In this document: piece by piece, positions 2,808-44,491 of the stretch
Position numbering within the stretch: position 1 is the first letter of the stretch
Layout: every line of letters begins with the position of its first letter
From: Saprospiraceae bacterium
GTDB taxonomy: Bacteria; Bacteroidota; Bacteroidia; Chitinophagales; Saprospiraceae
Length of the DNA stretch: 64,000 bases
Reading direction: 5' to 3'
Assembly (NCBI GenBank): GCA_027488935.1
Contig: JAIYAP010000014.1
Location: forward strand, 62,001 to 126,000
Made by a program: the position numbers and the translations under genes
Notes under the pieces: generated by a model
The model's input: only the letters and a program-made list of their open reading frames with translations
What the model was told of the DNA's origin: nothing
Database searches by the model: none

Positions 2808-4232
2808 TTAGTATCCGTTGTTCTGTAACAATGCCGAATTCAAGTCAATTTCTGTTTGTGGGATCGGAAAAACCTCGTGTTTGCCTGTTTGGAAACCCGG
2901 TAAGGTTTGTGCTGCAATGCCCCAGCGCACCAGGTCAAAAAAGCGGTGCATTTCAAAACCCAGTTCTACCTGGCGTTCGTGGCGAATTGCGGTGCGCATG
3001 GTCGCCTGGTCGGTGGTGGTAATGGTCGGTAAAGCGGTCAATGGGTCGCTTGCCTGGGCGCGGGCCCTGGCGCGCACTTGTTCGAGTGGCGCCTGGGCAT
3101 CCTGCACCCGGTTAAGTTCTGTAAGCGCTTCCGCCTCCCAAAGCAGTACTTCGGCATAGCGGATTGCCGTGTAATTGATGTCGCCGTCGGCTTTTTGCGT
3201 CACCTCTGCTTTGGGTTGGAGGTATTTACGCACGCCGTATTTGGTGGTGGAAAACGAGTTTTTGTACACCACCCCAAAATAATCCTCATTGTTGAGGGCT
3301 ACGGTAAATTTGCGCCGTGGATCGCCCGTTTCAAAAGCCTGCACAAATGCTTCGGTGGCTTCGGCAAATCCGTACCCTTCAAATTTTTTGGAAGCCCACC
3401 ACTGGTTCAGGAAATTGCCAACGCCTAATTGTAAGTTGGTGTGTTGTATTTCCCATACGGATTCTGCGTTGTTTTGGGTGGTTTTGCGAAAATTGTCTTG
3501 GTAATCGGGCACCAGGCTGTACACATTGAGTGCCTTTACTTTACCCACAAACTCTACCGTTTTTTCCCAGTTTTTATCGTACAAATAGGCTTTGGCGGCT
3601 AAAGCGAGTGCCGCGCCTTTGGTAGCCCGTCCGGCTTCTGATGCAGCAACCGTTGCGGGCAATAAATCGGCCGCGCGGGCAGCATCGGCTTCAATTTGGG
3701 CCAAAACCGCTGCTTTAGGCGTTTTGGGCACCTTCAGTTCGTCAGGAGGTGTCACCTTGATGAGCAAAGGCACCTCGCCGTACACCTGTACAAGCAAAAA
3801 GTAGTAGTAGGAACGCAAAAACAGCGCCTCGCCGCGGAGTTGGTTGCGGCGGGTTTCGTTGATTTCAATGGCATCTATATTGTCCAATACTAAATTGCAT
3901 TGAGTAATGCCGGTGTATTGCAATTTCCAAAAGGTATTGAACTCCTCGGTGCGGGGCGTGTACGTGAGGGCATCCATTTCGGTAATGCCCGGCCGGGAGC
4001 CATCGCCGCCGGTAATGGCTTCATCGGCGGTAACCACCCCAAAAGCCCAGTAATAGTTGTTGTTTTCGTTGCTGAATACCAGGGGTTGGTACGCCGCATT
4101 GAGGGCCTGAATGGCATCGGCTTCGGTTTGAAAATAAGAACCGGCATCCAAAATAGCGATCGGATCTTTATCCAGGATGCCCTGGCAAGCCGTAAAACTC
4201 AAAAAAATAAAAAAAAAAAGGGTTGTGCGCAT
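2808..4232 (-). CDS. susD-like: SusD/RagB-family outer-membrane glycan-binding lipoprotein
   Basis: SusD proteins are surface lipoproteins that cap a SusC barrel and capture glycan. Starting at the ATG at 4232, the product has a short lipoprotein signal (FFFIFLSFTAC) with the lipidated Cys at about residue 16, followed by GILDKDPIAILD. The body has the family helical pattern: FNTFWKLQYTGITQCNLVLDNID near the N-terminus, LRGEALFLRSYYYFLLVQVYGEVPL with its TPR-like helices, and the C-terminal RHERQVELGFEMHRFFDLVRWG and VFPIPQTEIDLN motifs. About 474 residues is normal for the family. An in-frame ATG at 4244 would add four residues; the inner one fits the signal peptide better. It follows SusC by about 44 nt and is certainly co-transcribed with it. 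Confidence 0.95.
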   Translation of the reverse strand: MRTTLFFFIFLSFTACQGILDKDPIAILDAGSYFQTEADAIQALNAAYQPLVFSNENNNYYWAFGVVTADEAITGGDGSRPGITEMDALTYTPRTEEFNTFWKLQYTGITQCNLVLDNIDAIEINETRRNQLRGEALFLRSYYYFLLVQVYGEVPLLIKVTPPDELKVPKTPKAAVLAQIEADAARAADLLPATVAASEAGRATKGAALALAAKAYLYDKNWEKTVEFVGKVKALNVYSLVPDYQDNFRKTTQNNAESVWEIQHTNLQLGVGNFLNQWWASKKFEGYGFAEATEAFVQAFETGDPRRKFTVALNNEDYFGVVYKNSFSTTKYGVRKYLQPKAEVTQKADGDINYTAIRYAEVLLWEAEALTELNRVQDAQAPLEQVRARARAQASDPLTALPTITTTDQATMRTAIRHERQVELGFEMHRFFDLVRWGIAAQTLPGFQTGKHEVFPIPQTEIDLNSALLQNNGY

Positions 4233-4276
4233 ATGGCTAAGCATTGAACCACCTGGTGAATACAGGTGGCAGGTTT

Positions 4277-8583: not shown

Positions 8584-8612
8584 TTGGTCTGCAACTCGTA
8601 TGGGTACTTTTG
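8584..8612 (+). promoter_or_regulatory. Promoter of the channel gene (TTG-N18-TACTTTTG)
   Basis: TTG at 8584-8586 and TACTTTTG at 8605-8612 fit the Bacteroidota -33/-7 pattern. A second TACTTTTG lies at 8624-8631. Both place the transcription start after 8610, so the open frame before 8665 is not translated and the ATG at 8665 is the start. Confidence 0.6.
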
Positions 8613-8664: not shown

Positions 8665-10821
8665 ATGAAAAACGTCATTTTTGCCCTGTCCGTACTGTTT
8701 TTTACAGTACACACTGCCTGCGTCCGTTCGCCTTTTTCCAGGCCTGTCAAATATGTGGCGTATATCGGCTTCAATTACCTGAACGCCGCCAAAGACAGCG
8801 CCAACAATTACCTCGATTCGCTGTATATCGTTGCGCTCGAAACCTACCTCCAACGCATCAATGCGCAACAATCGCCCAAACCTTATCCCGTCGAATTTCG
8901 CCTAAAAACCTATCAGTGCGATTATAATGCGGATACGATTCCACAACTCTATCAATCGATTGTACAGGACACCAATATTTACCTGGTCATTGATAATACC
9001 TGGGGCAAGTATATTCGGCTGGCCGCGCCGATTATTCGCGATCAATTGCCTGTAATGTCGATGAGCGCCGACCAAAACCGCCTCGATTTTGGCGAAAACG
9101 CGCTCTTTTTGCAGCCCAACGACCCGCAGCCGAATTATTGCGTGCAGTTTATTGATAAAGTACTGAAAAAGAAATCGGTTGGTTTTGTAACGGAATGTGA
9201 CTACTTATTGCACAATTTATTCCTGGAAAGCCTCAACAACAACAACATTCAGTACGATTCGGTGTGCCTTTGGCAACGCAGTTATGTACTCAACCGGGAA
9301 GTACCCAAGGATTCGGTGGTGGTGATGGAACGGTATCTGCAGCGCATGCTGGAAAAACCGGAGCCCGAAATTATCCTGCTCAATACCCACACCGGTTATG
9401 GCGATTCGATGATGCGCTTTTTGGAACGCAGCAAGTTGCCGCCCAAAACATTTGTGGGTATTTCTACCGACCTGACCGACCAGGAATTGGAAAAAATTTC
9501 GCGGGAAAAAGGCCATACGTTTATTCGTTACGCCGCCGCCGAGGAGGCTTTGCCCGAAAAAGTGTACCGCGATAAACAGGAAATTAAAAAACGGTTTTCA
9601 AAGCCGTTCCACAACCGCGACCCGAAAAAAGAAGGGCAGGCGGACAACAACCTGCGCCGCTGCTATGATGCGATGCATATTTTTGAAATTGCCCTGCGGG
9701 AAAATTGTACCAGTCGGGCGCAATTAATAGGGTATTTCAAGGGGCTGAAAAACCGAAAAATTTCGTACAACGACGATTTATTCGAATTTGACAACTTACT
9801 CATTCAGCGCAAAGACCCCAGTTTTGACCAAATTCATGGTGGCAAAACACGCAGTTGTCCTACCCAAATCAATACGTACGGCGAACCCATTGCCAACCTG
9901 CGCGTCGGTATAGACGTCATTGACATCAACGACATTGATGTGCGCAAAAATACCTTCGATTGTAACCTGCTGTATTGGGTGATTGCCGATTCGCAATACA
10001 TTAAAAAAGAAGGCTATATCGACTTTAGCAACATCAGTTCCGAAGAGGCCAACCGTTACCTGATTGCCGAAGAAAAAGACAGCAATTATGTGGTGCGCAT
10101 TTACCGGATCAGTGGAAAGTTTTTGGGCAATTTTAAGTCGTTTAAGTTTCCGTTCGACCGCCACGAACTAAAAATCCCCATTGCGGCGCTCAGTTCGAGC
10201 AACAAAATCAGGATTAGTTTTGATTACAGTCGTTTGCAAATCAACGATAAAATCAAAGATTTTGAATTTAATGACTGGGATACGCAGGAGTATTTTGTTA
10301 CGCTTGATAACCAGTTGTCGAATGCCCTGGGCTCGTTGGATAAAGTCACCTTTGATCCAGACGACAAAGCAAAGTACCTTGAAAATTATAAAAGTTTGAA
10401 CGTACACTTGGGTGTGGCACGGCAGCCCTGGGGGGCCATTATCCTGATTATTTTGCCGTTTTTGATGTTCAGCGCCTTGCCCATTTTTATGTTGTTTTTC
10501 CATAAAGCCAGTTTTGAAGAGGTGGGCGAACTTATTATCACCTCTTTCCTGGCTACGGTGGCGTACTCGATCAACCTGGTGCAAATTTCTCCCGCCACCG
10601 ATTCGATGAACTTGGCCTACATCTTTTTGATGCTCACGCTGGCCATCAATTTTTGCTGTTTTATCTATGTCACCATTATTGATCGGCAAAAAAAGACCGT
10701 ATTGGCGACGGAAAAAGCGGATGAAAACAAACCCCAGCCTCGATTCAGTGTACTGCGCATCTGGATGCCGATCTTGTTGCTGCTGGTGTTTTTGATGTTG
10801 TTGTATATGGTGTTTGGGTAA
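8665..10821 (+). CDS. Periplasmic binding protein type 1 domain fused to a pentameric ligand-gated ion channel (GLIC/Cys-loop-like)
   Basis: The 718-residue product has a signal sequence (residues 1-19, ending HTAC). Residues about 28-390 form a LivJ-like bilobed domain (YLVIDNTWGKYIRLAAPII, IRDQLPVMSMSAD, RCYDAMHIFEIAL). Residues about 405-585 form a channel extracellular domain: VGIDVIDINDIDVRKNTFDC with LLYW (W438), the Pro-loop FPFDRHELKIPI (495-506), and NDWDTQEYF. Four membrane helices follow: M1 586-612 starting ARQPWGAIILIILP, M2 618-640, M3 647-673, M4 694-718, with an M3-M4 loop of only about 20 residues. M2 aligns without gaps to GLIC from memory, giving Glu at -2' (E618), Glu at 2' (E622), Thr 6', Leu 9' (L629), Ala 13' and Ile 16'. 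Glu -2' suggests cation selectivity; the GLIC 11' His is Thr here. The ligand is unknown. The gene appears monocistronic. The first 27 codons of the longer open frame are rejected because of the promoter. Confidence 0.9.
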   Translation: MKNVIFALSVLFFTVHTACVRSPFSRPVKYVAYIGFNYLNAAKDSANNYLDSLYIVALETYLQRINAQQSPKPYPVEFRLKTYQCDYNADTIPQLYQSIVQDTNIYLVIDNTWGKYIRLAAPIIRDQLPVMSMSADQNRLDFGENALFLQPNDPQPNYCVQFIDKVLKKKSVGFVTECDYLLHNLFLESLNNNNIQYDSVCLWQRSYVLNREVPKDSVVVMERYLQRMLEKPEPEIILLNTHTGYGDSMMRFLERSKLPPKTFVGISTDLTDQELEKISREKGHTFIRYAAAEEALPEKVYRDKQEIKKRFSKPFHNRDPKKEGQADNNLRRCYDAMHIFEIALRENCTSRAQLIGYFKGLKNRKISYNDDLFEFDNLLIQRKDPSFDQIHGGKTRSCPTQINTYGEPIANLRVGIDVIDINDIDVRKNTFDCNLLYWVIADSQYIKKEGYIDFSNISSEEANRYLIAEEKDSNYVVRIYRISGKFLGNFKSFKFPFDRHELKIPIAALSSSNKIRISFDYSRLQINDKIKDFEFNDWDTQEYFVTLDNQLSNALGSLDKVTFDPDDKAKYLENYKSLNVHLGVARQPWGAIILIILPFLMFSALPIFMLFFHKASFEEVGELIITSFLATVAYSINLVQISPATDSMNLAYIFLMLTLAINFCCFIYVTIIDRQKKTVLATEKADENKPQPRFSVLRIWMPILLLLVFLMLLYMVFG

Positions 10822-11185: not shown

Positions 11186-11566
11186 TTATATTATTCTAAT
11201 TCCCGGAATATGTTCAAAATGCCTAGTATTGAGCGTTGCAATAGGGTAATTCCAAACACGGGCAGTTGCCGCGATCAGAATATCCAAGGGTTGCTGATGC
11301 TGGTTGAGCGGCTTGAGATAGGCGTATATGTTTGCTGCCTCGCGTGCGCAGGCACTATCAAACGGTAAAACCCTGACCTTAGCAAAAAATTCATCCCAAA
11401 AGGGATTTGAAGGGTGTTTTTCACCACGAAGGATTTCATACTCCACCACAGCAGGAACCACCAGCGTATCAAATTCTCTGCTTAGTTGAAAAAGGCGCGT
11501 CTGTGCTTTGTCTTTGTGCCGATAATATGCTATTAATATGCTTGAGTCAAGACAAACTACATCCAT
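11186..11566 (-). CDS. vapC-like: PIN-domain ribonuclease toxin (VapC-like)
   Basis: PIN proteins are Mg-dependent ribonucleases. The 126 residues show the family layout: first acidic residue in VVCLDSSILIAYY (D7), second in VEYEILRG (Glu near 45), third in QPLDILIAATA (Asp near 95), and the closing TLNTRHFEHIPGI segment where the fourth acidic position is less clear. Its start overlaps the end of the upstream gene by 10 nt, the usual antitoxin-toxin coupling. Context and motifs indicate a type II toxin that cleaves RNA, typically tRNA in this family; the target here is unknown. Confidence 0.9.
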   Translation of the reverse strand: MDVVCLDSSILIAYYRHKDKAQTRLFQLSREFDTLVVPAVVEYEILRGEKHPSNPFWDEFFAKVRVLPFDSACAREAANIYAYLKPLNQHQQPLDILIAATARVWNYPIATLNTRHFEHIPGIRII

Positions 11567-16023: not shown

Positions 16024-19000
16024 CTAACGCAAAATCGTGATAATCGGAAAATCCTGGCCATAGCCATAACTGGAAGGATACTGTGGCGAACCTTTATACC
16101 GCGCGGTAACATCTGGCACTTTTTCCTGCAAATAAGCATCCAACTCCTTCACGGTCAGTTTTTTATCGCCGGTGTCGCCAGCGCCTTTGAAGGCCTCCAG
16201 CAAACAATAGGTAAATGCACCATGCCCCAATTGGGCAAATTCCGAAGCAAATTGGGCACTTCCTGAGGCCGTCAGCCAATGTGTACCGGTAGAGCGGGCA
16301 AGTTGGGCAATGGCCTTTTCTTCGGCCGCACCCCTCGACGCAATCACCTGCTCCAGCGCGCCTGCCGACTGACAAGCATCCAGGATAAACAATTGTTTTT
16401 GGGCTTTTATTTCCTTCGAATAATTTTGTAGTTCATTGGCACTCAGTCCTTTTTGTGCCAGGGCTTCATCGTTCCCATACAACTGCGTCACATCTTGCGG
16501 TACCAGGAAAAAGGCTTTTTGATCGTTGATGACCCCATGCCCGGCATAGTAAAACAAGAACAAATCTTGTGGATTGGCGGCGGCTTTCACTTTGTCGAGG
16601 GCGGCTACAATCCCCGCTTTCGTGGCTTGTTCATTGGTGATATACGTGGTGTTTACACGGGAAAAAATACTTTTAGCGCCTTGTTCGATGGCCTCTTTAA
16701 AGGCCAATGCATCCGCTTGTGCATAGTTCAGGCTGTATTTCGGGTTTTTATAGGTATTAATCCCAATGACCACCAGGTGCAATTGCAGACCACCCGTAGT
16801 GCTTGTGTTTTTGTCTGAGCCAGCCAGGACAATAACCATCTCTGCGGGAATAGATTCGGTGCGTTGTTTGTTGATGGCGACTGCACGGATCGTATTTTCA
16901 CCGGGTAAAAGCGGCAGGTTGTATGATTTGTTAAATTGACTATTGCTGGCATTTTCCTCCTCTACGATCAGGTTGCGGGTGCTAGATTCGACCAATTTGC
17001 CATTGTGAAACAAACGAATTTCGGCAATTTCACCGCCTGTGCTCGCTGCTTCCAGTTGGATATTTACCGAGGATTGCGTGGCGTCGTACACCTCCAATTT
17101 GGGGTCGTTGCGCTTTTTGCCACCGTTAAACATCATTTTGATCGTAGGAAGCGCCTTTAATTGTTTGATATTCGGCAAATTCTGCGGCAAATTTTGGTCC
17201 CACACCTGGGAAAGCAACCCTGGTACGTAATACTGCTCGTATAAACTTTCCAGCGGAATAATTTCAGTTCCCCGGCTGTAATACATTTTCTGCATAGCGC
17301 CTGCAGAAGCATCAAAACGGCCATCGGGGGTAAATACCAGCCAGTCCTCGGTTTCTTCAAAGAGTAAAATCCGGGCCACTTGTCGCTTTTTTTCCAGATC
17401 GTATATGCTCAATCCACTGCTTTCGGAAGTAACCAGGTAGCGTTCGTTGCGCAGGAAAAAGACATCCCCGCCGCGATCTTCCGGGCATTTAATCACATGG
17501 GTTTGCTTTTGGGTAATTACGTCTACAATGGCAAGGTCATCGCCCACTGCATCATTTGTCTTGTTGTTCAGTTGCACCGCTGCCGTTTTCCCGGAAGGAG
17601 ATAGGGTCGTCCACCATTCCGTAGCCGGGAGTTGGTAGGTGGCCTTGTTCGGGGTGCCTGTGGCCGCATCCAACCAAATTAGTTGATCTTTTTCGGTAAA
17701 ACTGGCTGTTTTGCCACCGTTTTCGAATCGTACATTATCAATCCAGTTGCCCACATGTTGCCAAAGGATCCGTTTACCCACTAAATCATAACAATACACT
17801 AAATCAAAACCCTCCGAACCATCGACGCGAAACAGCAACCGCGATTTGTCGGGCGCAAGATCACAGATGTAATTATGGCCGCTTTCATACAACACATAAT
17901 CGCTGGCGGCTTCCGGTTTGGGAACAAAACTCCGCAGTTTGTAGTTTTTTAAGTCGATTATATAAATTCCTTCATTGGCCACCGCCGCCAGAAAACCTGC
18001 CGCCTCAAATATCCGCAAACCCACCAAACCTACCGCCGGTACGGTTTCTATTTGTTTGTAAACGAGTTCTTTACTATTCGGATCAAATTCATATAATCCC
18101 TGGGTATTTACCACCACAAATCCGCGTTTGCCATCGGCGGTGAGTCGATAAACACAATCCGCATTTTCTACAGGCGCATTAAACCGCTTCACATGCAGAC
18201 CATTTTGGTCAAAATACAACGCACGGTCTTGCAACCACAAACCATCTGTGTGTTGCATGGAATAATTTTGTTCGGCATGCAAAGGTGTGTATCCGTATTT
18301 ACCTTGATACACGTCGCCCGGCATCGTATATTTACCCATCGTGATCCCCATGATGTAATATTTTCCAGAAGGGGCAAAACGCAGGTTTTGGGGGCCATTC
18401 ATGCCGTAACCAGGATATTCAAATTTGCTGACGCTGCTTGCCGTAAAAGTGCGCACATCAAAAATCCGGTATTCCCCCTGGTATTCGAGCGCAAGTTGAT
18501 CGGCGTTGATCGGGTAGGCCTCTGTAATACTCAACGGATCGATATCTGATTCGACGCTGAACAACACCGAAGATTTGCGTTTCGACTGGCCGTTGCTGGC
18601 GTCTAATTCTTCCAAAAAGAAGGTCTTTTCATTTTCACCGGAAAAGGCCAGCATATTCCCACTGGGCAAGTAGGTATACGGAAAGGTTTTTTTGTCGTAA
18701 TTTTTAACTAACTTATTGGTAGCCAAGTTAATGATACGGGTTCCCATCACCTGATCGTACAATAGCAATTGTTGCTCATCGGGGCGCAAACTTAGACGGT
18801 TGATGGCGTGGGTGGCCATGGTTTTTACCGTGTAGGCGTATATCGTAGTCGGTATGCCCGTTGCAAGGACGATTTTTTGCACAAAAAGGTTGTCATATTT
18901 CTCCGTTTCGCGGCCGCCTGCATACAATGTTTTCCCGTCGGCAGTAAAAATCAGCGTGCCCAGGGTATGGGCTAATTTGATTTTTTGCGTCAGCACAAAA

Positions 19001-19323
19001 CGATTCAGGTTGTATAGGTATAAGGTGTCAGCGTTTTGGAAAGCCAGCCATTGATTGTCAGGACTCACCGTGAGCAAATGTTCAAAATTGAGTTGCCGAC
19101 CGCCGGTGTAGGTTGGAAAAACAATGTTTTTGAGCAACCGCCGGGTTTCGTTTTCCCATATTTTTATTTCTGAAGCCCCCGCCGTAATCAGGTATTTTTC
19201 ATCATGGGTAAAAACAACATTATCTGCATAGTGCCGAGCTGGAAAAATCAATGCGGGTGCGTCTGTTTGTGCCAGAGAAACAAAGGCCTGGAGCAATAAT
19301 ATAATGGAAAAAAGGTATTTCAT
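16024..19323 (-). CDS. Secreted WD40-like repeat protein with C-terminal caspase (peptidase C14) domain
   Basis: The protein has 1099 residues and a signal peptide (LQAFVSLAQ). Residues about 25-680 contain beta-propeller-type repeats (VVFTHDEKYLITAGASEIKIW, LRFAPSGKYYIMG, VFTPDGRFDAS). A beta-sandwich linker covers about 740-840. The caspase-like domain runs from 846 to the end: LHLVVIGINTYKNP, catalytic His in FYYAGHG (about H929), catalytic Cys in LFILDACQSAG (about C984), then WLTASGSAQFA and GHGAFTYCLLEAF. Both catalytic residues are intact, so an active Arg/Lys-type metacaspase-like peptidase is expected, here outside the cytoplasm. It is the last gene of the regulated cluster, 39 nt after the previous gene. 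Confidence 0.92.
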   Translation of the reverse strand: MKYLFSIILLLQAFVSLAQTDAPALIFPARHYADNVVFTHDEKYLITAGASEIKIWENETRRLLKNIVFPTYTGGRQLNFEHLLTVSPDNQWLAFQNADTLYLYNLNRFVLTQKIKLAHTLGTLIFTADGKTLYAGGRETEKYDNLFVQKIVLATGIPTTIYAYTVKTMATHAINRLSLRPDEQQLLLYDQVMGTRIINLATNKLVKNYDKKTFPYTYLPSGNMLAFSGENEKTFFLEELDASNGQSKRKSSVLFSVESDIDPLSITEAYPINADQLALEYQGEYRIFDVRTFTASSVSKFEYPGYGMNGPQNLRFAPSGKYYIMGITMGKYTMPGDVYQGKYGYTPLHAEQNYSMQHTDGLWLQDRALYFDQNGLHVKRFNAPVENADCVYRLTADGKRGFVVVNTQGLYEFDPNSKELVYKQIETVPAVGLVGLRIFEAAGFLAAVANEGIYIIDLKNYKLRSFVPKPEAASDYVLYESGHNYICDLAPDKSRLLFRVDGSEGFDLVYCYDLVGKRILWQHVGNWIDNVRFENGGKTASFTEKDQLIWLDAATGTPNKATYQLPATEWWTTLSPSGKTAAVQLNNKTNDAVGDDLAIVDVITQKQTHVIKCPEDRGGDVFFLRNERYLVTSESSGLSIYDLEKKRQVARILLFEETEDWLVFTPDGRFDASAGAMQKMYYSRGTEIIPLESLYEQYYVPGLLSQVWDQNLPQNLPNIKQLKALPTIKMMFNGGKKRNDPKLEVYDATQSSVNIQLEAASTGGEIAEIRLFHNGKLVESSTRNLIVEEENASNSQFNKSYNLPLLPGENTIRAVAINKQRTESIPAEMVIVLAGSDKNTSTTGGLQLHLVVIGINTYKNPKYSLNYAQADALAFKEAIEQGAKSIFSRVNTTYITNEQATKAGIVAALDKVKAAANPQDLFLFYYAGHGVINDQKAFFLVPQDVTQLYGNDEALAQKGLSANELQNYSKEIKAQKQLFILDACQSAGALEQVIASRGAAEEKAIAQLARSTGTHWLTASGSAQFASEFAQLGHGAFTYCLLEAFKGAGDTGDKKLTVKELDAYLQEKVPDVTARYKGSPQYPSSYGYGQDFPIITILR

Positions 19324-26338: not shown

Positions 26339-26405
26339 TTGGTTTTTGGGGGATAAAGAGAATAATTGCGAAATGTGGGTCGGCATAAAATGGTTGCGCG
26401 TATTC

Positions 26406-26727
26406 ATTGTCTGAACCTGGATTTGGGGGGATTTGGGGATTTTGGGATGCGTTAATTGTCTGAACCTGGATTGGGGGGGATTATGAGATTTTTGCGCGCA
26501 TTAATTGTCTGAACCTGGATTTGGGGGGATTTTGGGATTTAAGGATTTTTGAGATTATTAATAGTAATACATCCTCAAATCAAAAAATCCCCCCAAATCC
26601 CGGTTCAGACAATGTATACGCACAACCATCCTAAAATCCTAAAATCCCCCCAAATCCAGGTTCAGACAATGAATGCGCGCAACCATCCACAAATCCACAA
26701 CTCCCCCCAAATCCCGGTCCAGACAAT
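26406..26727. repeat. Six-copy inverted array of a REP-like ATTGTCTGAACCTGG element
   Basis: Three copies of ATTGTCTGAACCTGGATT followed by a G-rich run (starting 26406, 26455, 26502) face three reverse-complement copies (CCCAAATCC[A/C]GGT[T/C]CAGACAAT) ending near 26614, 26671 and 26727. The transcript could form a very long hairpin. The spacers are G/T-rich on one arm and C/A-rich on the other. No gene is present between 26211 and 26828. Related GTCTGAACC repeats are, to my recollection, common in Bacteroidota genomes. Confidence 0.8.
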
Positions 26728-37108: not shown

Positions 37109-40100
37109 TTAATTTTGAATCACCGTCAAATCCCCTTTGATCAGTTCTATTGTTCCATCGACCAGGCGCACTTTCAAATAATACACATACACGCCCACGC
37201 CCACTTCTTTACCGCCAACCCGGCCATCCCAACCCGGCCATTCATTGGGCCCGATGGGCGTATCCAGGATATACACGGCGTTGCCCCAACGGTCGAAAAT
37301 GCGCAACTCTTCCATGCGCAATACCGACGGACCCGCACCGATTGTAAACAGGTCGTTATCGTTGCGGTTATCCGGCGAAAACACGTTGGGTACATAAACC
37401 GGCGAAGTCTTTTTCACAATAACACGAATGGTCGCTTTGGATACACAACCAAAAGTATCCACTTGCGTAACGGTATAACTACCCGAACTGAAGGGGATCC
37501 AGGTTTGGGTAAGGCAATTGGCACAACTGGAATCAGCCAAAGGCGACCAACTAATGCTGCGCCAAACATCCAGGTTGGTTTGGGCCTCAATGATCAATAC
37601 CTGCCCAAGTTGCACCACGGTATCGGAAGGCAGCGAAATAACACCCGATTCGGGCACCACCAACGAGAACGTCGAGTCGACAATACAATCGTTGGCATCT
37701 TGCACCACAATGTTGTGGGAGCCGCTGCCAATAGACGGAATGGTACCACTTACCAGGTTTCCATCCAAAAATACATCATACAACTGAACCCCACCCAAGG
37801 GGGTAATGGCCACATCTGCCACCTGTTCACCGCAGTCCGGACGGTCCACGGCCAGAATAAACCGCAGGGGATCGGGTGCTTTTAAACTCGTAGTACCGAG
37901 TGTTGGACAACCGTTGTTATCCGTAATCGTAACAGTATAATCGCCTTCACCCAACTTGCTGTTTGTAGCCAAAGTATCGCCATTGCTCCACAGGTATTGA
38001 TAAGGGCCGGTACCGCCGCCGACCACTGCGGTCGCCGAACCATCGGTATCGCCAGCACAACGCACCCCAAAACCATTGTATAATTGCAGCGGGGTGACGA
38101 GTACCGACAAAGCAGGTGGTGCGGTCACTACACTTTGCAAGGTCAGGGTTGGGCCGGTAGTCTGGGTAATGGTAATGCTAAAGGTGCCTGCCGCCAGCCC
38201 GGGTATTTGAAATGCCGTATTCAATCCGGCGGTTGTGCCGCTACCGGAGTTGCCTTGCCCATCGATCCAGTTGTATTGAAACGGCGGCAGTCCCGAATTG
38301 ATCAGAACCGTCACCTGGCCATCGTCGTTGTCGGCACAAGTGGTGGGTGTACTGCCAATGACCCCACTTGGCGCGCAAAGGGTTGGATCATACACGGTGA
38401 TGCGTACCACAACCGAATCGCAACCGTCAATACCGCTGAGGGTTTCGATTAATTGACCGGCCTGGGTTTGGTCGCAAGTGGTCAGCGTAATTTGGGTCGT
38501 ATCCAGCTGCGTCGGGTCGAAAATTACGATGCGTGTGACCACCGAGTCACAGCCATTGATGTTATAGGTGTCAATAAAGGTACCCGCGTTATTCGGTTTG
38601 CAGGTAAATACGTTCACCGTATTGGTAATGGGCGGTGCCAGGGTCGTGTTGGTGATCACCACGGAGTCGCAACCGTTGGAGCCGCTTAAGATGATTTGTG
38701 CAATACCAACTTGCGCCGCATTGCAGGTTACGGCAGTTAAAAAGGTAGAATCAATCAAACTCGGATCAAACACAACCGTGGTGGTTCGAATCGAGTCACA
38801 ACCGTCGATGCTTACCAGGTTTTGGGTAAATACGCCCGCTTCATTGGGTTTGCAAGTGATCGTTGAAAAGGCCAGCGCATAACTTGGGGCCAAGGTACGG
38901 TTGGTGATCAAAACAGAATCGCAGCCATTGACACCCAAAAACGTTTGTGCGACCTGGCCCACCTGGCCTGGCAAACAGGTTTTGGTATTTAAAAGGGTAG
39001 TATCAATCAAACTTGGATCAAACACAACCGTGGTCGTTACCGTAGAGTCACAACCGAAAATATTAGTCAAATTTTGGGTAAATACCCCAGCTTCTGCTGG
39101 TTTACAAGTCACTGCACTCAGGTTGATGGTATTGCTAGGCAACAAAGTAGTGTTGGTAATCACCAGGGAGTCGCAGCCATCAACGCCCACCAGCAATACC
39201 TGGGTGGGTACCGCATTGGCCGGAATACAAGTAGTTGCTCCCAGGATCGTGGTATCAATATTGGCCGGATTGAACGTAATCGTATTGATTACGGTGGAAT
39301 CGCAGCCAAATATATTGGTCAAATTTTGGGTAAATACCCCTGCATTTGCCGGATTACAGGTAACACTGCTCAAATTCACGGTATTGCTGGGCAGGAATTG
39401 TGTGGTAAGAATCACCGTACTGTCGCAACCAAATTGATTGAAAAAATTGGTAACCACCACGCCGGTGTCTAATGGATTACAACTGCTTGCGCTAAGGTTG
39501 GTGATGTTGAGCGGATTGACCGTAACGGTGGTATTGGCCAGGGCCGTACAACCCACTGCATCGCTTACAATCACGGCGTAGTTGGTGGTTGCGTTGGGGA
39601 CAACCGTGATGGAATTCGACATTTGGCCGCCGCTCCAGTTGTAACTGGTGCCACCATTGGCAGTGAGGGTCGTGCCATCACCGCTGCACAGGGTCGTTAC
39701 GCCGGTAATGGTCGCCACCGGTGCTGGGTTGATGTTTATGGTAAATACTTCTGCCACCCCGGTACACGTGCCGATTTGGGGCGTTACGGTGATTTGGGCG
39801 GTTTCTACGGCGGTCACATTGGCGCCAATAAAACTCAGGTTTCCGGTGCCACTTGCCGCCAAACCAATGGCCGGGTTGTTGTTGGTCCAGTTGTACACGG
39901 TGTTGCCGGTGCCAAATGTAACCGCCACCGGCGTGTTGGCACATGCATTGGTGATACCTGGATTGGTAACCGTGGGTATAGTAACAACTGTGATATTAAA
40001 GGTTTGGGTAGGACCCGTGCAGGTGCCGTTTACCGGGGTTACCGAAATGGTGCCGGTGGTAGGACCTGCTACATTTGCTGCAGTAAAATTGATGTTGCCA

Positions 40101-43100
40101 TTTCCGGTAGCACCCAGGCCAATGGCCGGGTTGTTGTTGGTCCAGTTAAAGATCGTACCGGCAGCGCCTACAAAGTTGACATCCAGCACGTTGCCGCCAC
40201 ACACATTTTGGTCGCCCGGGTTGGTCATCGTCGCTGCCGGTTGCACCGTGATGGCAAAGGTTTGTGGTGCGCCGTTACAAGAGCCCAATACAGGTGTAAC
40301 ACTGATGTTGCCCACCAGCGGGGCCGCTACATTGGCTGCCGTAAACATGATACTGCCATTGCCACTGGCACCCAATCCGATGCCAGTATTGTCATTTATC
40401 CAGGTAAAAGAAGTGCCGGTTTGGTTGGCGCTGAAATCAATTTGCAGCACATTGGTGGCACATACCTGCAAATCAGCGGGTGGTGATACCTGTGGGGTTG
40501 GGTTGACGGTGATGTTAAATTGAACAGTTGCGCCGGTACAGGTGCCAATTTGCGGCGTTATCGTGATCACAGCGGTTTGCGGATTAACTACATCCGCAGA
40601 AGTAAATACCAAGTTACCAGTTCCGCTGGCTGCCAAACCGATGGCAGGATTGGAATTGGTCCAGTTGAAACTACCCGCGCTGCCACTCAAGGCTATATTG
40701 ACCGCCTGGTTGCCGCAAATAATTTGATCGACAGGCGCGGTGGCGGTCGGCTGACTTTCGATGGTAATGGAAAAACTCAGGGGTGTTCCAGGACAACCAT
40801 TGGCGGTAGGGGTAACCGTTACCACGCCGGTAGTCGTGTTTGCTACATTGGGGCTGGTATAACTAATATTTCCACTGCCGCTTGCGCCCAGGCCCGTTGC
40901 GGTATTGCTGTTGGTCCAGTTGAACGTTGCACCGGCCGTTCCGGTAAAATTGACATTTACAGGCTGACCACCGCATACCAATACATCGGCAGGTTGGTTG
41001 AGCACCGCGGCAGGGTTGACGGTAATGGTAAATGTGCGCGCGACACCCGGGCAGGTGCCCGATTGGGGTGTTACGGTTATATTGGCTATTTGCTGGGTTG
41101 TCACATTGGCGCTGGTAAAACTGATATTTCCATTGCCCGACGCGCCCAGGCCTACTATCGGGTTGTCGTTGGTCCAGCTATAGGTAACCCCCACCGGTGT
41201 GCCGGCAAAAGCCACATTCACGGGCGCGCCTGCACAAACCACCACATTGGCCGGTTGGTTGGCCGTGGGAATGGGTGCTACAGTAACCGTAAAGGTCTGC
41301 GGCGCGCCGGGGCATCCACTGGCATTTGGGGTAACAGTAATGGTTCCGGTTTGGGTGGCAGCCACATTGGCTGCATTAAAGTTAATATTGCCAGTACCGG
41401 AAGCCCCCAGACCAATGGCCGGATTGGAGTTGGTCCAGTTCAGGGTTGGATTGCCCGTGGCGGCAAAATTGACCACAACCGGGTCGCCTGCGCAAACAGC
41501 CTGATCCAGCGGGTCGGTCAGCACCGGAGTCGGATTGATGGTTATGGTAAATGTGCGCGCTACACCCGGGCAGGTGCCAAATTGGGGCGTTACCGTAATA
41601 TTGGCAATTTGCTGGGTTGCCACATTGGCGCTGGTAAAACTGATATTGCCGTTGCCCGACGCACCCAGGCCTACTGCCGGGTTGTCGTTGGTCCAGCTAT
41701 ACGTTACCCCCACTGGCGTACCGGCAAAAGCCACATTCACGGGCGCGCCTGCACAAATCACCACATTGGCCGGTTGGTTAGCCGTGGGAATGGGTGCTAC
41801 AGTAACCGTAAAGGTCTGCGGTGTGCCAGGACATCCACTAGCATTTGGGGTAACGGTAATGGTTCCGGTTTGGGTGGCAGCCACATTGGCTGCATTAAAG
41901 TTAATATTGCCCGTGCCAGAAGCACCCAGGCCAATAGCAGGATTGGAGTTGGTCCAGTTCAGGGTTGCGTTGCCTGTAGCGGCAAAATTTACAACAACCG
42001 GATCGCCCGCACAAACAGCCTGGTCCAGGGGGTCGGTCAGCACCGGAGTAGGGTTGATGGTGATGGTAAAGGTACGCGGTACCCCTGGGCAGGTGCCAAA
42101 TTGAGGCGTAACTGTAATATTGGCAATTTCCTGATTGGCCACATTGGCGCTGGTAAAACTGATATTGCCCGTACCTGAAACGCCCAAGCCTACTGCCGGG
42201 TTGTCGTTGGTCCAGCTATACGTCACCCCCACCGGCGTACCGGCAAAAGCCACATTCACGGGCGCACCAGCACAAACCGTTACATTGGCGGGCTGGTTGG
42301 CTGTGGGCGCAGGTGCAACCGTGATGGTAAACAACTGCGGAGTTCCTGGACACCCGCCACTGTTGGGCGTTACGGTGATGGTACCAGTTTGGGTCGTTGC
42401 CACGTTTGCGGCATTAAAATTAATATCGCCATTGCCGGAAGCACCTAAACCGATCGCAGTGTTGTTATTGGTCCAAGAAAAACTCGGGTTACCGTTGCCT
42501 GTAAATACCAAGATAACCGGATCGCCGGCACATACATTTTGATCACCCGGATCGTTTACCGTGGGCGACGGATTGATAATAATGGCAAAAGTCCGCGGAA
42601 TACCTGGGCAGGCACCATTTTGTGGAGTTACCGTGATGTTGGCAATTTCCTGATTGGCCACATTTAAGCTGGTAAAACTAATATTTCCAGTGCCAGACGC
42701 ACCCAGGCCGATGCTAGGGTTATCGTTGGTCCAGTTGTAAATATTGCCGCCGGGCGTCCCGTTAAAGTTTACGACCACCGGTGCGCCGCCGCAAACGGTT
42801 ACATCGTTGGGCTGGTTAAGTACGGGCGTCGGACTAACACTAATATTGAAATTTTGCGGAGTACCCGGACAGCCTGCCAGAACAGGCGTAACCGTGACAA
42901 CACCAGTCGTGACGCCAGCCACACTGGCGGCTGTAAAATTAATGTCCCCGGTACCGCTGCCACTCAATCCAATGGACGGGTTGGTATTGGTCCAGTTAAA
43001 CGTTGGGCTTCCTGTACCAGTGAAGGTAACACCCACCGGATCACCGCCACAGACACTCAAATTGGGTGGATCATCCACTGTTGGGGTAGGGTTGATGGTG

Positions 43101-44491
43101 ATGGTAAAGGTTTGGGGCGTACCTGGGCAGGTGCCAAACTGGGGGCTTACCGTAATACTGGCTACTTCCTGATTGGCCACATTGGCGCTGGTAAAACTAA
43201 TATTTCCGGTGCCGGAAGCGCCCAGACCTACGGTTGTATTATCGTTGGTCCAGCTGTAGGTAACACCACCTGGAGTACCGCTAAAATTGACCGTTACTGG
43301 TCCACCGCCACATACCGTAATGTTAGCCGGAATATTGACCGTGGGAGCCGGATTGACGGTAATAGTAAAATTCTGGGAAGGCCCCGGACAGCCGTTTTCA
43401 TTGGCCGAAACTGTTACAGTACCAACTTGGGTAGCAGCCACGTTAGCGGAGGTAAAACTTAAATCGCCACTGCCAGAAGCCCCCAAACCAATGGCCGTAT
43501 TGTTATTGGTCCAGTTAAACGTAGCCCCCCCATTGCCACCGGTATAAGTTACATTCACCGTTTCATTGGCACAGACGGTAATATTTGGCGGATCGGCTAC
43601 CACAGGCAGCGGATTTACCGTAACCGTGAAAGTAATCGGTGGGCCTGGGCAACTCGGCAACGTAGGCGTAACGGTGATGGTGCCTACCTGCTGGGTTGCA
43701 ACATTTGCTGAAGTAAAATTCACATTGCCCGTACCACTGGCACCCAAGCCAATAGCGGTATTGTTGTTGGTCCAGTTATACACAGTGCCTGAGGGACCTG
43801 TAAAAATAGCGCTCACGGGGCTATTGGCACAAACGGTAATATCAGCAGGCTGCGTCATTACAGGCGCTGTAGTTCCTGTAACAGAAACATTATCAAACCA
43901 ATAGGTTTCTGCAGTTGCTTTATTGGAAGGCTGAATTCTAATTTCCAGGGTGGTGCCACTCAAACCATTGATGGTGGCTGTACCTGCCATGCCGCCGCAC
44001 ACATAAGCAAATTGAATCCAGGGCCCGCCATTAATGCGGTATTGAAATACAATTTGGTCATGGCCATTGTCGATTGCAACATTGCCCTGACAGCCGAAAT
44101 AAGGACCACCAGCAGTACATTCAAACGAGCCACTAAAGCCATACGTCACCGAAATGCCTACATTACAAAATCCGGCGATGTTAATCGGGTTGGTGACCCA
44201 TTCATTATCGCCGCCGCCGCCAGATGGGCAACAAGGCGCTCCCTCCATATCCGTAACTTCAAAACGGTTGTTCTGTACGCCCGCAAAGGAAGCCGCCGTT
44301 CCATCACAATCGGTAAAATTCTGTGTCCAGCCCTGGTTGGCACCGGAAAAATCTTCCTGCCAGATTTGAGCGTGGAGGTCCTTGGGCAGTACCAGCATCA
44401 AAAAGAGCAGGGCTCCAAGGGTGCTTAGGGGAGTACGTTGTTTCAACAAGGAAGGAAATTGGAAAATAAAGAGAGGGGACTTGAATGCCAT
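37109..44491 (-). CDS. Giant T9SS surface protein with 16 Ig-like repeats, GCDS repeats and gliding-motility C-terminal domain
   Basis: The protein has 2460 residues. Signal region (ALLFLMLVLPKDLHAQ), an N-terminal domain of about 45-207 (IWQEDFSGANQGWTQNFTDC, ETYWFDNVSVTGT) resembling a carbohydrate-binding or MAM-like sandwich, then 16 Ig-like repeats of about 86 residues (about 208-1580) with consensus VC.G.PV.V.F.GT..TFNWTN.NPAIGLGASGTGNI.FT. A further Ig-like unit (about 1585-1655) and nine short repeats each containing GCDS (about 1660-2030) follow, then SprB-like modules (ATAVVGGGTGPYQYLWSNGD). The C-terminus (VYVPNVFSPDNRNDNDLF, LRIFDRWGNAVY, GVGVYVYYLKVRLVDG) is the type B gliding-motility/CHU_C sorting domain. 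A cell-surface adhesin or motility filament is likely. Confidence 0.94.
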   Translation of the reverse strand: MAFKSPLFIFQFPSLLKQRTPLSTLGALLFLMLVLPKDLHAQIWQEDFSGANQGWTQNFTDCDGTAASFAGVQNNRFEVTDMEGAPCCPSGGGGDNEWVTNPINIAGFCNVGISVTYGFSGSFECTAGGPYFGCQGNVAIDNGHDQIVFQYRINGGPWIQFAYVCGGMAGTATINGLSGTTLEIRIQPSNKATAETYWFDNVSVTGTTAPVMTQPADITVCANSPVSAIFTGPSGTVYNWTNNNTAIGLGASGTGNVNFTSANVATQQVGTITVTPTLPSCPGPPITFTVTVNPLPVVADPPNITVCANETVNVTYTGGNGGATFNWTNNNTAIGLGASGSGDLSFTSANVAATQVGTVTVSANENGCPGPSQNFTITVNPAPTVNIPANITVCGGGPVTVNFSGTPGGVTYSWTNDNTTVGLGASGTGNISFTSANVANQEVASITVSPQFGTCPGTPQTFTITINPTPTVDDPPNLSVCGGDPVGVTFTGTGSPTFNWTNTNPSIGLSGSGTGDINFTAASVAGVTTGVVTVTPVLAGCPGTPQNFNISVSPTPVLNQPNDVTVCGGAPVVVNFNGTPGGNIYNWTNDNPSIGLGASGTGNISFTSLNVANQEIANITVTPQNGACPGIPRTFAIIINPSPTVNDPGDQNVCAGDPVILVFTGNGNPSFSWTNNNTAIGLGASGNGDINFNAANVATTQTGTITVTPNSGGCPGTPQLFTITVAPAPTANQPANVTVCAGAPVNVAFAGTPVGVTYSWTNDNPAVGLGVSGTGNISFTSANVANQEIANITVTPQFGTCPGVPRTFTITINPTPVLTDPLDQAVCAGDPVVVNFAATGNATLNWTNSNPAIGLGASGTGNINFNAANVAATQTGTITVTPNASGCPGTPQTFTVTVAPIPTANQPANVVICAGAPVNVAFAGTPVGVTYSWTNDNPAVGLGASGNGNISFTSANVATQQIANITVTPQFGTCPGVARTFTITINPTPVLTDPLDQAVCAGDPVVVNFAATGNPTLNWTNSNPAIGLGASGTGNINFNAANVAATQTGTITVTPNASGCPGAPQTFTVTVAPIPTANQPANVVVCAGAPVNVAFAGTPVGVTYSWTNDNPIVGLGASGNGNISFTSANVTTQQIANITVTPQSGTCPGVARTFTITVNPAAVLNQPADVLVCGGQPVNVNFTGTAGATFNWTNSNTATGLGASGSGNISYTSPNVANTTTGVVTVTPTANGCPGTPLSFSITIESQPTATAPVDQIICGNQAVNIALSGSAGSFNWTNSNPAIGLAASGTGNLVFTSADVVNPQTAVITITPQIGTCTGATVQFNITVNPTPQVSPPADLQVCATNVLQIDFSANQTGTSFTWINDNTGIGLGASGNGSIMFTAANVAAPLVGNISVTPVLGSCNGAPQTFAITVQPAATMTNPGDQNVCGGNVLDVNFVGAAGTIFNWTNNNPAIGLGATGNGNINFTAANVAGPTTGTISVTPVNGTCTGPTQTFNITVVTIPTVTNPGITNACANTPVAVTFGTGNTVYNWTNNNPAIGLAASGTGNLSFIGANVTAVETAQITVTPQIGTCTGVAEVFTININPAPVATITGVTTLCSGDGTTLTANGGTSYNWSGGQMSNSITVVPNATTNYAVIVSDAVGCTALANTTVTVNPLNITNLSASSCNPLDTGVVVTNFFNQFGCDSTVILTTQFLPSNTVNLSSVTCNPANAGVFTQNLTNIFGCDSTVINTITFNPANIDTTILGATTCIPANAVPTQVLLVGVDGCDSLVITNTTLLPSNTINLSAVTCKPAEAGVFTQNLTNIFGCDSTVTTTVVFDPSLIDTTLLNTKTCLPGQVGQVAQTFLGVNGCDSVLITNRTLAPSYALAFSTITCKPNEAGVFTQNLVSIDGCDSIRTTTVVFDPSLIDSTFLTAVTCNAAQVGIAQIILSGSNGCDSVVITNTTLAPPITNTVNVFTCKPNNAGTFIDTYNINGCDSVVTRIVIFDPTQLDTTQITLTTCDQTQAGQLIETLSGIDGCDSVVVRITVYDPTLCAPSGVIGSTPTTCADNDDGQVTVLINSGLPPFQYNWIDGQGNSGSGTTAGLNTAFQIPGLAAGTFSITITQTTGPTLTLQSVVTAPPALSVLVTPLQLYNGFGVRCAGDTDGSATAVVGGGTGPYQYLWSNGDTLATNSKLGEGDYTVTITDNNGCPTLGTTSLKAPDPLRFILAVDRPDCGEQVADVAITPLGGVQLYDVFLDGNLVSGTIPSIGSGSHNIVVQDANDCIVDSTFSLVVPESGVISLPSDTVVQLGQVLIIEAQTNLDVWRSISWSPLADSSCANCLTQTWIPFSSGSYTVTQVDTFGCVSKATIRVIVKKTSPVYVPNVFSPDNRNDNDLFTIGAGPSVLRMEELRIFDRWGNAVYILDTPIGPNEWPGWDGRVGGKEVGVGVYVYYLKVRLVDGTIELIKGDLTVIQN
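38400..39520 (-). repeat. Array of nine GCDS-containing repeats inside the giant gene
   Basis: Nine units of about 38-42 codons share the pattern T-C-x-P-x-x-A-G-x-F-T-Q-N-L followed by GCDS-x-V. Alternate units are more alike, giving a two-unit period of about 240 bp. Confidence 0.75.
39750..43870 (-). repeat. Sixteen tandem Ig-like repeats inside the giant gene
   Basis: Sixteen units of about 258 bp encode the repeats VC...PV...F.G.....W.N.N..IGLGASG. Each contains the nearly invariant block coding NWTNxNPAIGLGASGTGNI. Units at the two ends are more divergent than those in the middle. Confidence 0.88.
41020..42310 (-). repeat. Recent 519-bp tandem expansion
   Basis: Within the array, repeats 7-11 alternate two types, A (ANQPANVxVCAGAPVNVAFAG) and B (LTDPLDQAVCAGDPVVVNFA). 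The string CCGGCAAAAG recurs at 41202, 41721 and 42240, exactly 519 bp (173 codons) apart, with near-identical flanks. This indicates recent duplication of an A-B pair. Confidence 0.88.

Follow-up and report, generated by a model that had tools for sequence, protein, structure and literature searches.

The window analysed here, a stretch of 64,000 nucleotides from a Saprospiraceae bacterium (NCBI GenBank assembly GCA_027488935.1, contig JAIYAP010000014.1, positions 62,001 to 126,000 of the forward strand), contains a gene at 8665..10821 (+ strand, 718 amino acids plus stop) that joins a type I periplasmic-binding-protein (PBP-I) domain to a channel of the pentameric ligand-gated ion channel (pLGIC), or Pro-loop, superfamily, to which the nicotinic and GABA receptors of animals belong. 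The product is probably an inner-membrane homopentameric cation channel in which each subunit carries a PBP-I flytrap, and in which a small periplasmic solute gates or modulates the pore. All coordinates below are those of the window, and all features of the fusion gene lie on its + strand.

One constrained reading frame encodes both domains

The frame and the stop given in the original prediction held on rechecking the sequence. The ATG-started version of the gene was used (the program-made open reading frame opens at a TTG, at 8584), and relatives have a methionine at the matching start position, where the rows of their 11-row full-length alignment (A1) were trimmed by us. The nearest records to the protein come from Saprospiraceae and Bacteroidota metagenome-assembled genomes. 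Constraint acts on the gene: the whole-gene ratio of non-synonymous to synonymous substitution rates (dN/dS) was 0.014 against a 99% identical relative (L011), and 0.034 and 0.045 against two others (L012 and L013), for both of which dS is saturated (>2). The ratio was not computable with a fourth relative (L014).

The source genome holds a single copy of the gene and is assembled in 88 contigs, which might suggest that gene prediction or assembly had artificially fused two adjacent genes. However, a profile of A1 (with at most two candidates scored in each genome) found the fusion in 17 of 31 sampled genomes of the same genus, the source genome included, i.e., in one open frame in 16 and split over two contigs in one more. 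Such an artefact is already refuted because relatives carry the fusion, and we give it practically no chance. The same profile found the fusion in none of 367 sampled genomes from other genera of the family, so that within this family sample it is restricted to one genus.

The C-terminal half belongs to the pLGIC superfamily

A phmmer search of the PDB placed GLIC at an E-value of 0.012 over residues 476–718, the NCBIfam model TIGR00860 (LIC) reached 0.03 and 13.1 bits (cut-off 280), and scanning the window protein against Pfam and NCBIfam yielded no usable match. A profile (A3) was made from eight standalone pLGICs of the Bacteroidota (L002–L006, L039, L042 and L043), which also match Pfam weakly (PF02931 in five of the eight, best 5.5e-5). 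This profile matched solved pLGICs (a GABA-A chimera at 6.5e-25, ELIC at 8.5e-20 and GLIC at 4e-18) as well as the window gene (E 3.6e-12), and profile–profile comparison with hhalign yielded a probability of 98 (E 2.6e-13, 217 columns). What makes the homology convincing is this indirect link, in which the standalone profile bridges the fusion and the solved pLGICs, the direct matches being weak.

Seven residues point the same way. Table 1 of a survey of 561 pLGICs (PMC4795631) lists the seven most conserved residues, and their counterparts F495, P496, D498, W538, R586, P598 and P643 were present in all 20 distinct sequences of the fusion family (the window copy included, as in all such counts below). 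They cover the F/Y-P-x-D Pro-loop, the β9 tryptophan, the pre-M1 arginine, the M1 proline and the M2–M3 proline, and the spacing of 12 from pre-M1 arginine to M1 proline is that of GLIC. As judged from the intermediate profile together with these residues, the C-terminal half is homologous to the pLGIC superfamily, in agreement with the original prediction.

The extracellular ligand-binding-type domain was assigned to residues 394–585 (9844..10419) on the A3 and hhalign matches and on W538, its fold not being confidently predicted, and it holds the Pro-loop FPFD at residues 495–498 (10147..10158), exactly where it had been placed before. Four transmembrane helices were predicted at block pLDDT (predicted local distance difference test) values of about 45–70. 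Conservation and the model delimit M1 to residues about 587–612 (10423..10500), with proline P598 and the pre-M1 arginine R586 just ahead of it, and alignment A1 and the model delimit M3 to about 646–673 (10600..10683). A short variable M3–M4 loop (about 674–694; 10684..10746) leads to M4 (about 695–717; 10747..10815), placed by the model and the identity profile.

Closeness to GLIC itself had been overstated. The GLIC alignment had been described as gap-free through M2. In the phmmer alignment, the gap-free stretch begins late in M1 and spans M2 and M3, while M1 itself is interrupted by a 2-residue gap and the extracellular part by larger ones. Likewise, the term GLIC-like claims too much: the fused clade sits on a very long branch and shares only 16–22% identity with the eight standalone pLGICs of its phylum.

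The N-terminal half is predicted to adopt a PBP-I fold

Residues about 27–391 (8743..9837) were predicted as a two-lobed alpha/beta domain, with 34 of the 37 ten-residue blocks from 31 to 400 at a mean pLDDT of at least 70. The whole model, computed from an alignment limited to 11 related rows, had a mean pLDDT of 66.3 and a predicted template modelling score (pTM) of 0.56, and the other four models had mean values of 56.6–61.8. When this whole model was compared to the PDB with Foldseek, the GABA-B receptor (4mqf) was the top match (2.0e-12), the Leu/Ile/Val-binding protein (1z15) followed at 6.1e-12, and the first 50 matches also included mGlu2, a LivK and glutamate-receptor amino-terminal domains. 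The root-mean-square deviation was about 5–6 Å for 4mqf and 1z15 and about 5–7 Å for most matches; the Foldseek output prints no aligned range, and the identities of the targets would place the matches in the N-terminal half. The Pfam family Peripla_BP_6 was matched in 7 of 10 family members at E ≤1 (best 1e-5), with the window copy at 15.9 bits and E 0.01, under the cut-off of 31.7. A family search of the source genome did not list the fusion gene among its Peripla_BP_6 matches, and one other protein of that genome exceeded the cut-off. On the predicted fold and these weak matches in relatives, the N-terminal half is a PBP-I domain, and the LivJ-type bilobed domain of the original prediction was borne out.

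Sequence comparison with the PDB added little: phmmer with the N-terminal part gave no match, the N-terminal profile gave two liprin matches (0.37 and 0.44) that were judged to be chance, and the N-terminal part of one relative gave a single chance-like match. A search of 198 genomes of the order revealed no close relatives of the PBP domain apart from the fusion, as the N-terminal profile (E ≤0.01) matched only two of them, i.e., the source genome itself and a 56-residue leader match at 0.0041.

Mean pairwise identity among the 11 aligned fusions rises toward the pore, from 43.8% in the leader over 55.8% in the PBP domain and 71.9% in the extracellular domain to 88.9% in M1–M3 and 94.2% in M2; variable segments are the M3–M4 loop (24.6% over residues 674–698) and M4 (51.9%). 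The lower identity of the PBP domain than of the extracellular domain and M1–M3 would suit a modulatory or assembly domain to which no gating solute binds, the channel then being gated by an agent that binds its own extracellular domain, such as protons, calcium or an amine. Nevertheless, invariant residues gather, modestly, at strand ends, which in PBP folds face the binding cleft: they fill 15 of the 45 positions within five residues after PBP strand ends, vs. 57 of 274 for residues 27–300 as a whole (P 0.023, uncorrected; 0.017 for four positions and 0.027 for six), with no enrichment before strand starts (4 of 41). Given where strand ends face, this modestly favours a conserved ligand. Moreover, two four-residue stretches, N111-T112-W113-G114 and A135-D136-Q137-N138, do not vary among the 11 rows of A1. 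We regard the purely modulatory or assembly role as a possible but rather doubtful alternative to a solute-binding flytrap that acts on the pore.

The M2 helix carries a rebuilt, acidic pore mouth

M2 (residues about 617–641; 10513..10587) reads SFEEVGELIITSFLATVAYSINLVQISP. Prime numbering was taken from the GLIC phmmer alignment, in which the aligned glutamate of GLIC is what we take to be the –2′ position. This gives E618 (–2′), E619 (–1′), V620 (0′), E622 (2′), T626 (6′), L629 (9′), A633 (13′) and I636 (16′). Under this numbering the residues named in the original prediction (glutamate at –2′ and 2′, Thr 6′, Leu 9′, Ala 13′ and Ile 16′) are right, as is the loss of the 11′ histidine, the residue there being threonine, but the glutamate at –1′ and the absence of a basic 0′ residue had been overlooked.

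These features are characteristic of the family. Among the 20 distinct sequences, –1′ is always glutamate, –2′ is glutamate in 18, and 0′ is always valine, isoleucine or alanine. A basic residue at 0′ is reported for 79% of superfamily members and is not an absolute feature of them (PMC4795631). In a joint alignment, glutamate stood at both –1′ and 2′ in 18/18 fused rows and at neither of them in any of the 33 standalone or 5 Cache-fused rows (see below), and arginine stood at 0′ in 0/18 fused, 30/33 standalone and 4/5 Cache-fused rows; at –2′ the fused rows had glutamate in 16 of 18, with one aspartate and one glycine. With acids at –1′ and 2′, often a further one at –2′ and no basic 0′ residue, the cytoplasmic mouth thus has two or three acids per subunit, and the usual superfamily rules would predict cation selectivity from such charges, perhaps including divalents. 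The residue at 11′ (threonine in 17/20, alanine in 3/20, histidine in none) is a reasonable but indirect argument, drawn from sequence, against proton gating of the GLIC type.

The unusual pore mouth, lacking a basic 0′ residue and having glutamate at 2′, and a very long stem branch (4.29 changes per column, see below) could also hint that the pLGIC part now serves as a scaffold or relay, signalling solute binding without ion flow. Drift would be expected of an abandoned pore, however, and M2 is instead the most conserved segment measured, with 20 of its 27 residues invariant and Leu 9′, Ala 13′ and Ile 16′ kept in 20/20 sequences. We therefore deem a non-channel role improbable, and retain a conducting pore as the preferred reading.

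A conserved cysteine suggests a lipid anchor

The protein starts with a hydrophobic leader of residues 1–19 (8665..8721), which ends in Cys19 (codon 8719–8721) and is a probable lipoprotein signal. The original prediction had missed this cysteine, which closes the leader, as in lipoproteins, in 19/19 distinct sequences reaching that position; within the leader, only M1 and C19 are invariant across A1. The lipoprotein attachment-site profile LPAM_1 gave a weak match in one of 10 family members (E 0.13). A gene in the window at 2808–4244, judged by eye to be of the SusD type, has a leader that ends in TAC, as does that of the fusion protein, and SusD-type proteins are known lipoproteins. Lipidation of Cys19 is likely from the leader sequence.

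Among the eight standalone pLGIC leaders, read by eye, a terminal cysteine was absent in seven. The eighth belongs to a standalone pLGIC from another Bacteroidota family (L006, 1396–2463), in which a lipoprotein-like leader (FLIFACG) and then a long polar stretch precede the channel domain, so that pLGICs may have gained a lipid anchor on more than one occasion.

Cys19 is only eight residues from the first PBP strand of the predicted model, and a lipid anchor would therefore keep that lobe near the membrane. This allows for a more speculative and, in our view, unlikely arrangement of a lipid-anchored pLGIC, in which the flytrap lies beside the extracellular domain rather than atop it: one PBP lobe would be held at the membrane, the other would be attached to the top of the extracellular domain, and ligand-driven closure would pull as a lever, opening a divalent-cation-permeable pore lined by the –1′ and 2′ glutamate rings. 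We know of no pLGIC or glutamate receptor that uses such a geometry, and a search of the open literature, with subscription papers mostly outside its coverage, found no report of a lipidated pLGIC.

The fused channels form a diverged lineage

Standalone pLGICs occur in at least 4 of the 31 sampled genomes of the same genus, and the standalone-channel profile matched 32 of 395 genomes of the phylum, the source genome included. A single-protein search of the 395 genomes, which is insensitive, revealed no other fusion (two matched, one being the source genome itself). PF02931 over 150 family genomes gave weak, stop-containing matches in two, but detected neither the window gene nor the standalone channels known from the other searches. 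Plasmids gave no match to the full fusion protein, and pattern-based scans of viral contigs gave no confirmed match to either the fusion protein or the standalone channels.

Twelve long frames besides our own, found with the standalone-channel profile in one other Bacteroidota family, initially resembled further PBP fusions. The five of them that were read (L083–L087) look Cache-type by eye, and three of these were also scanned with Pfam. Like the window protein, these five have a small-molecule sensor N-terminal to a pLGIC, in frames of 721–740 amino acids in four cases and 1074 in the fifth. Unlike its PBP-I domain, their sensor is Cache-type (dCache_1 at 1.7e-5 to 0.0031 in 3/3 scanned, all below cut-off), and their channels form a clade separate from the fused PBP-I channels. 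Their M2 aligned with an 11-column insertion relative to the other channels, which may reflect either the alignment itself or a genuine difference in the pore.

In a quick tree, the fused channels fell on one side of a single branch (Shimodaira–Hasegawa-like approximate likelihood ratio test support of 100; stem as given above). As the program warns of long-branch attraction, their placement among the other channels is not claimed. The lineage of the fused channels is far diverged, has a rebuilt pore mouth and probably bears a lipid anchor; these features are new, the architecture is not.

Gene neighbourhood

An AraC-type regulator gene precedes the fusion gene at a distance of 87 bases, and the genes that come after the fusion are on the opposite strand. 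One of the latter (11186–11566, –) encodes a PIN-domain protein (1.6e-13), perhaps a toxin–antitoxin member, and adjoins the gene of a 262-amino-acid protein without Pfam match.

A conserved operon was sought across 18 loci, some of them cut by contig ends, and none is claimed. A GWxTD-type gene follows the fusion in eight, and in four an S15 peptidase gene precedes it on the same strand at a distance of no more than 150 bases; one member per cluster was identified with Pfam (GWxTD at 26.3 bits, cut-off 26.9; S15 at 1.3e-56). A POT peptide transporter gene stands further along at some relatives' loci. These peptidase and transporter neighbours are the sole hint at the ligand class. In two relatives, a gene directly upstream of the fusion (L054 8201–9700, –; L057 5173–6735, +) encodes a 500–521-amino-acid protein with hydrophobic stretches and, by eye, a possible SPOR-like C terminus; the L057 copy has no Pfam match.

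Elsewhere in the window, 16024–19323 (–) encodes a protein of 1099 residues that has a caspase-like domain (Peptidase_C14, 7.3e-17) at its C terminus and weakly matches beta-propellers, and 37109–44491 (–) a 2460-residue, probably secreted protein with many similar repeats and, by eye, a gliding-motility-like C-terminal region. Tandem repeats with units of 49 bp and 57 bp form two short arrays (26402–26540 and 26570–26727), which resemble reverse complements of each other by eye and are possibly a repetitive element of the genome.

A proposed gating mechanism

In the mechanism we favour, the gene product would be one subunit of a homopentameric, cation-permeable inner-membrane channel of the pLGIC/Pro-loop superfamily, with a PBP-I Venus-flytrap domain on the periplasmic side of each subunit. 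The solute bound in the cleft would be a small periplasmic one, most probably an amino acid or some similar product of peptide breakdown. Closure of the lobes would pass movement to the extracellular domain and, via the Pro-loop/pre-M1/M2–M3 coupling, to the M2 pore, which would be opened or have its ease of opening altered. The charged rings at –2′, –1′ and 2′ would give the mouth of the pore a strong negative charge, which should favour the passage of cations, perhaps including divalent ones.

Several observations weigh against this proposal. The profile of the 11 fusions finds GLIC no better (0.014) than the single protein does. PF02931 and PF02932 left the window protein and its channel half unmatched at E ≤5, and 11 members unmatched at E ≤1; the test against these families that the original prediction had set for its C-terminal 315 residues thus fails when taken literally, and the homology rests on the intermediate profile. 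Furthermore, the extracellular domain was not modelled confidently (pLDDT under 50 for residues 487–593, and a mean of 46.6 for the channel half folded alone). As to the ligand, the PBP-I domains of some receptors bind no agonist, the enrichment at the cleft is modest and uncorrected, and Q137 is phenylalanine in one of 19 sequences of the wider set. Finally, neighbouring genes differ among relatives, and the window copy has neither the peptidase nor the transporter beside it.

Relation to known receptors and meaning

GLIC shares with the window protein the Pro-loop, the pre-M1 arginine, the M1 and M2–M3 prolines and the glutamate at –2′, but has no N-terminal domain; its histidine at 11′ is replaced by threonine in the window protein, which has the additional glutamates at –1′ and 2′. 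The original comparison with ionotropic glutamate receptors is valid for the layout, as an analogy only, since these likewise carry a PBP-type domain on a pore, but one unrelated to that of pLGICs.

Fusions of this kind had been thought rarely noted, yet they are an established theme. The passages of Tasneem et al. cited here (PMC549065) described fusions of PBP-I with this channel superfamily in 2004, in Magnetospirillum and Bradyrhizobium, and suggested that they are chemotaxis receptors; the kind is therefore already known. These PBP-I ART-LGICs have the same layout as the window protein (signal peptide, PBP-I, pLGIC ligand-binding domain and four-helix channel), the PBP-I domain lying between signal peptide and pLGIC in both, but belong to another phylum, and the likeness is one of described layout. 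Cache-fused pLGICs are a further theme of that work (PMC549065). Prokaryotic pLGICs with extra N-terminal domains have been on record for two decades, and a 2022 review notes that many such domains resemble periplasmic binding proteins (PMC9221113). DeCLIC is likewise a prokaryotic pLGIC with a large extra periplasmic N-terminal domain, but this consists of two jelly-roll lobes, in contrast to the alpha/beta PBP-I fold found here (PMC12664993, PMC9897478). A passage in a 2025 paper calls the DeCLIC domain the sole extra N-terminal domain on prokaryotic pLGICs to be even partly characterised (PMC12664993). Our open literature search, within the same coverage as above, found no report of an experimentally tested PBP-I/pLGIC fusion.

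The present family is a conserved PBP-I version of this architecture with many relatives from which to pick for expression. With it one could ask directly if a pore of the nicotinic type can be gated by a nutrient-binding protein, a design problem for which glutamate receptors use an unrelated pore, and its rebuilt selectivity region tests the rules that tie the residues at –1′, 0′ and 2′ to ion choice.

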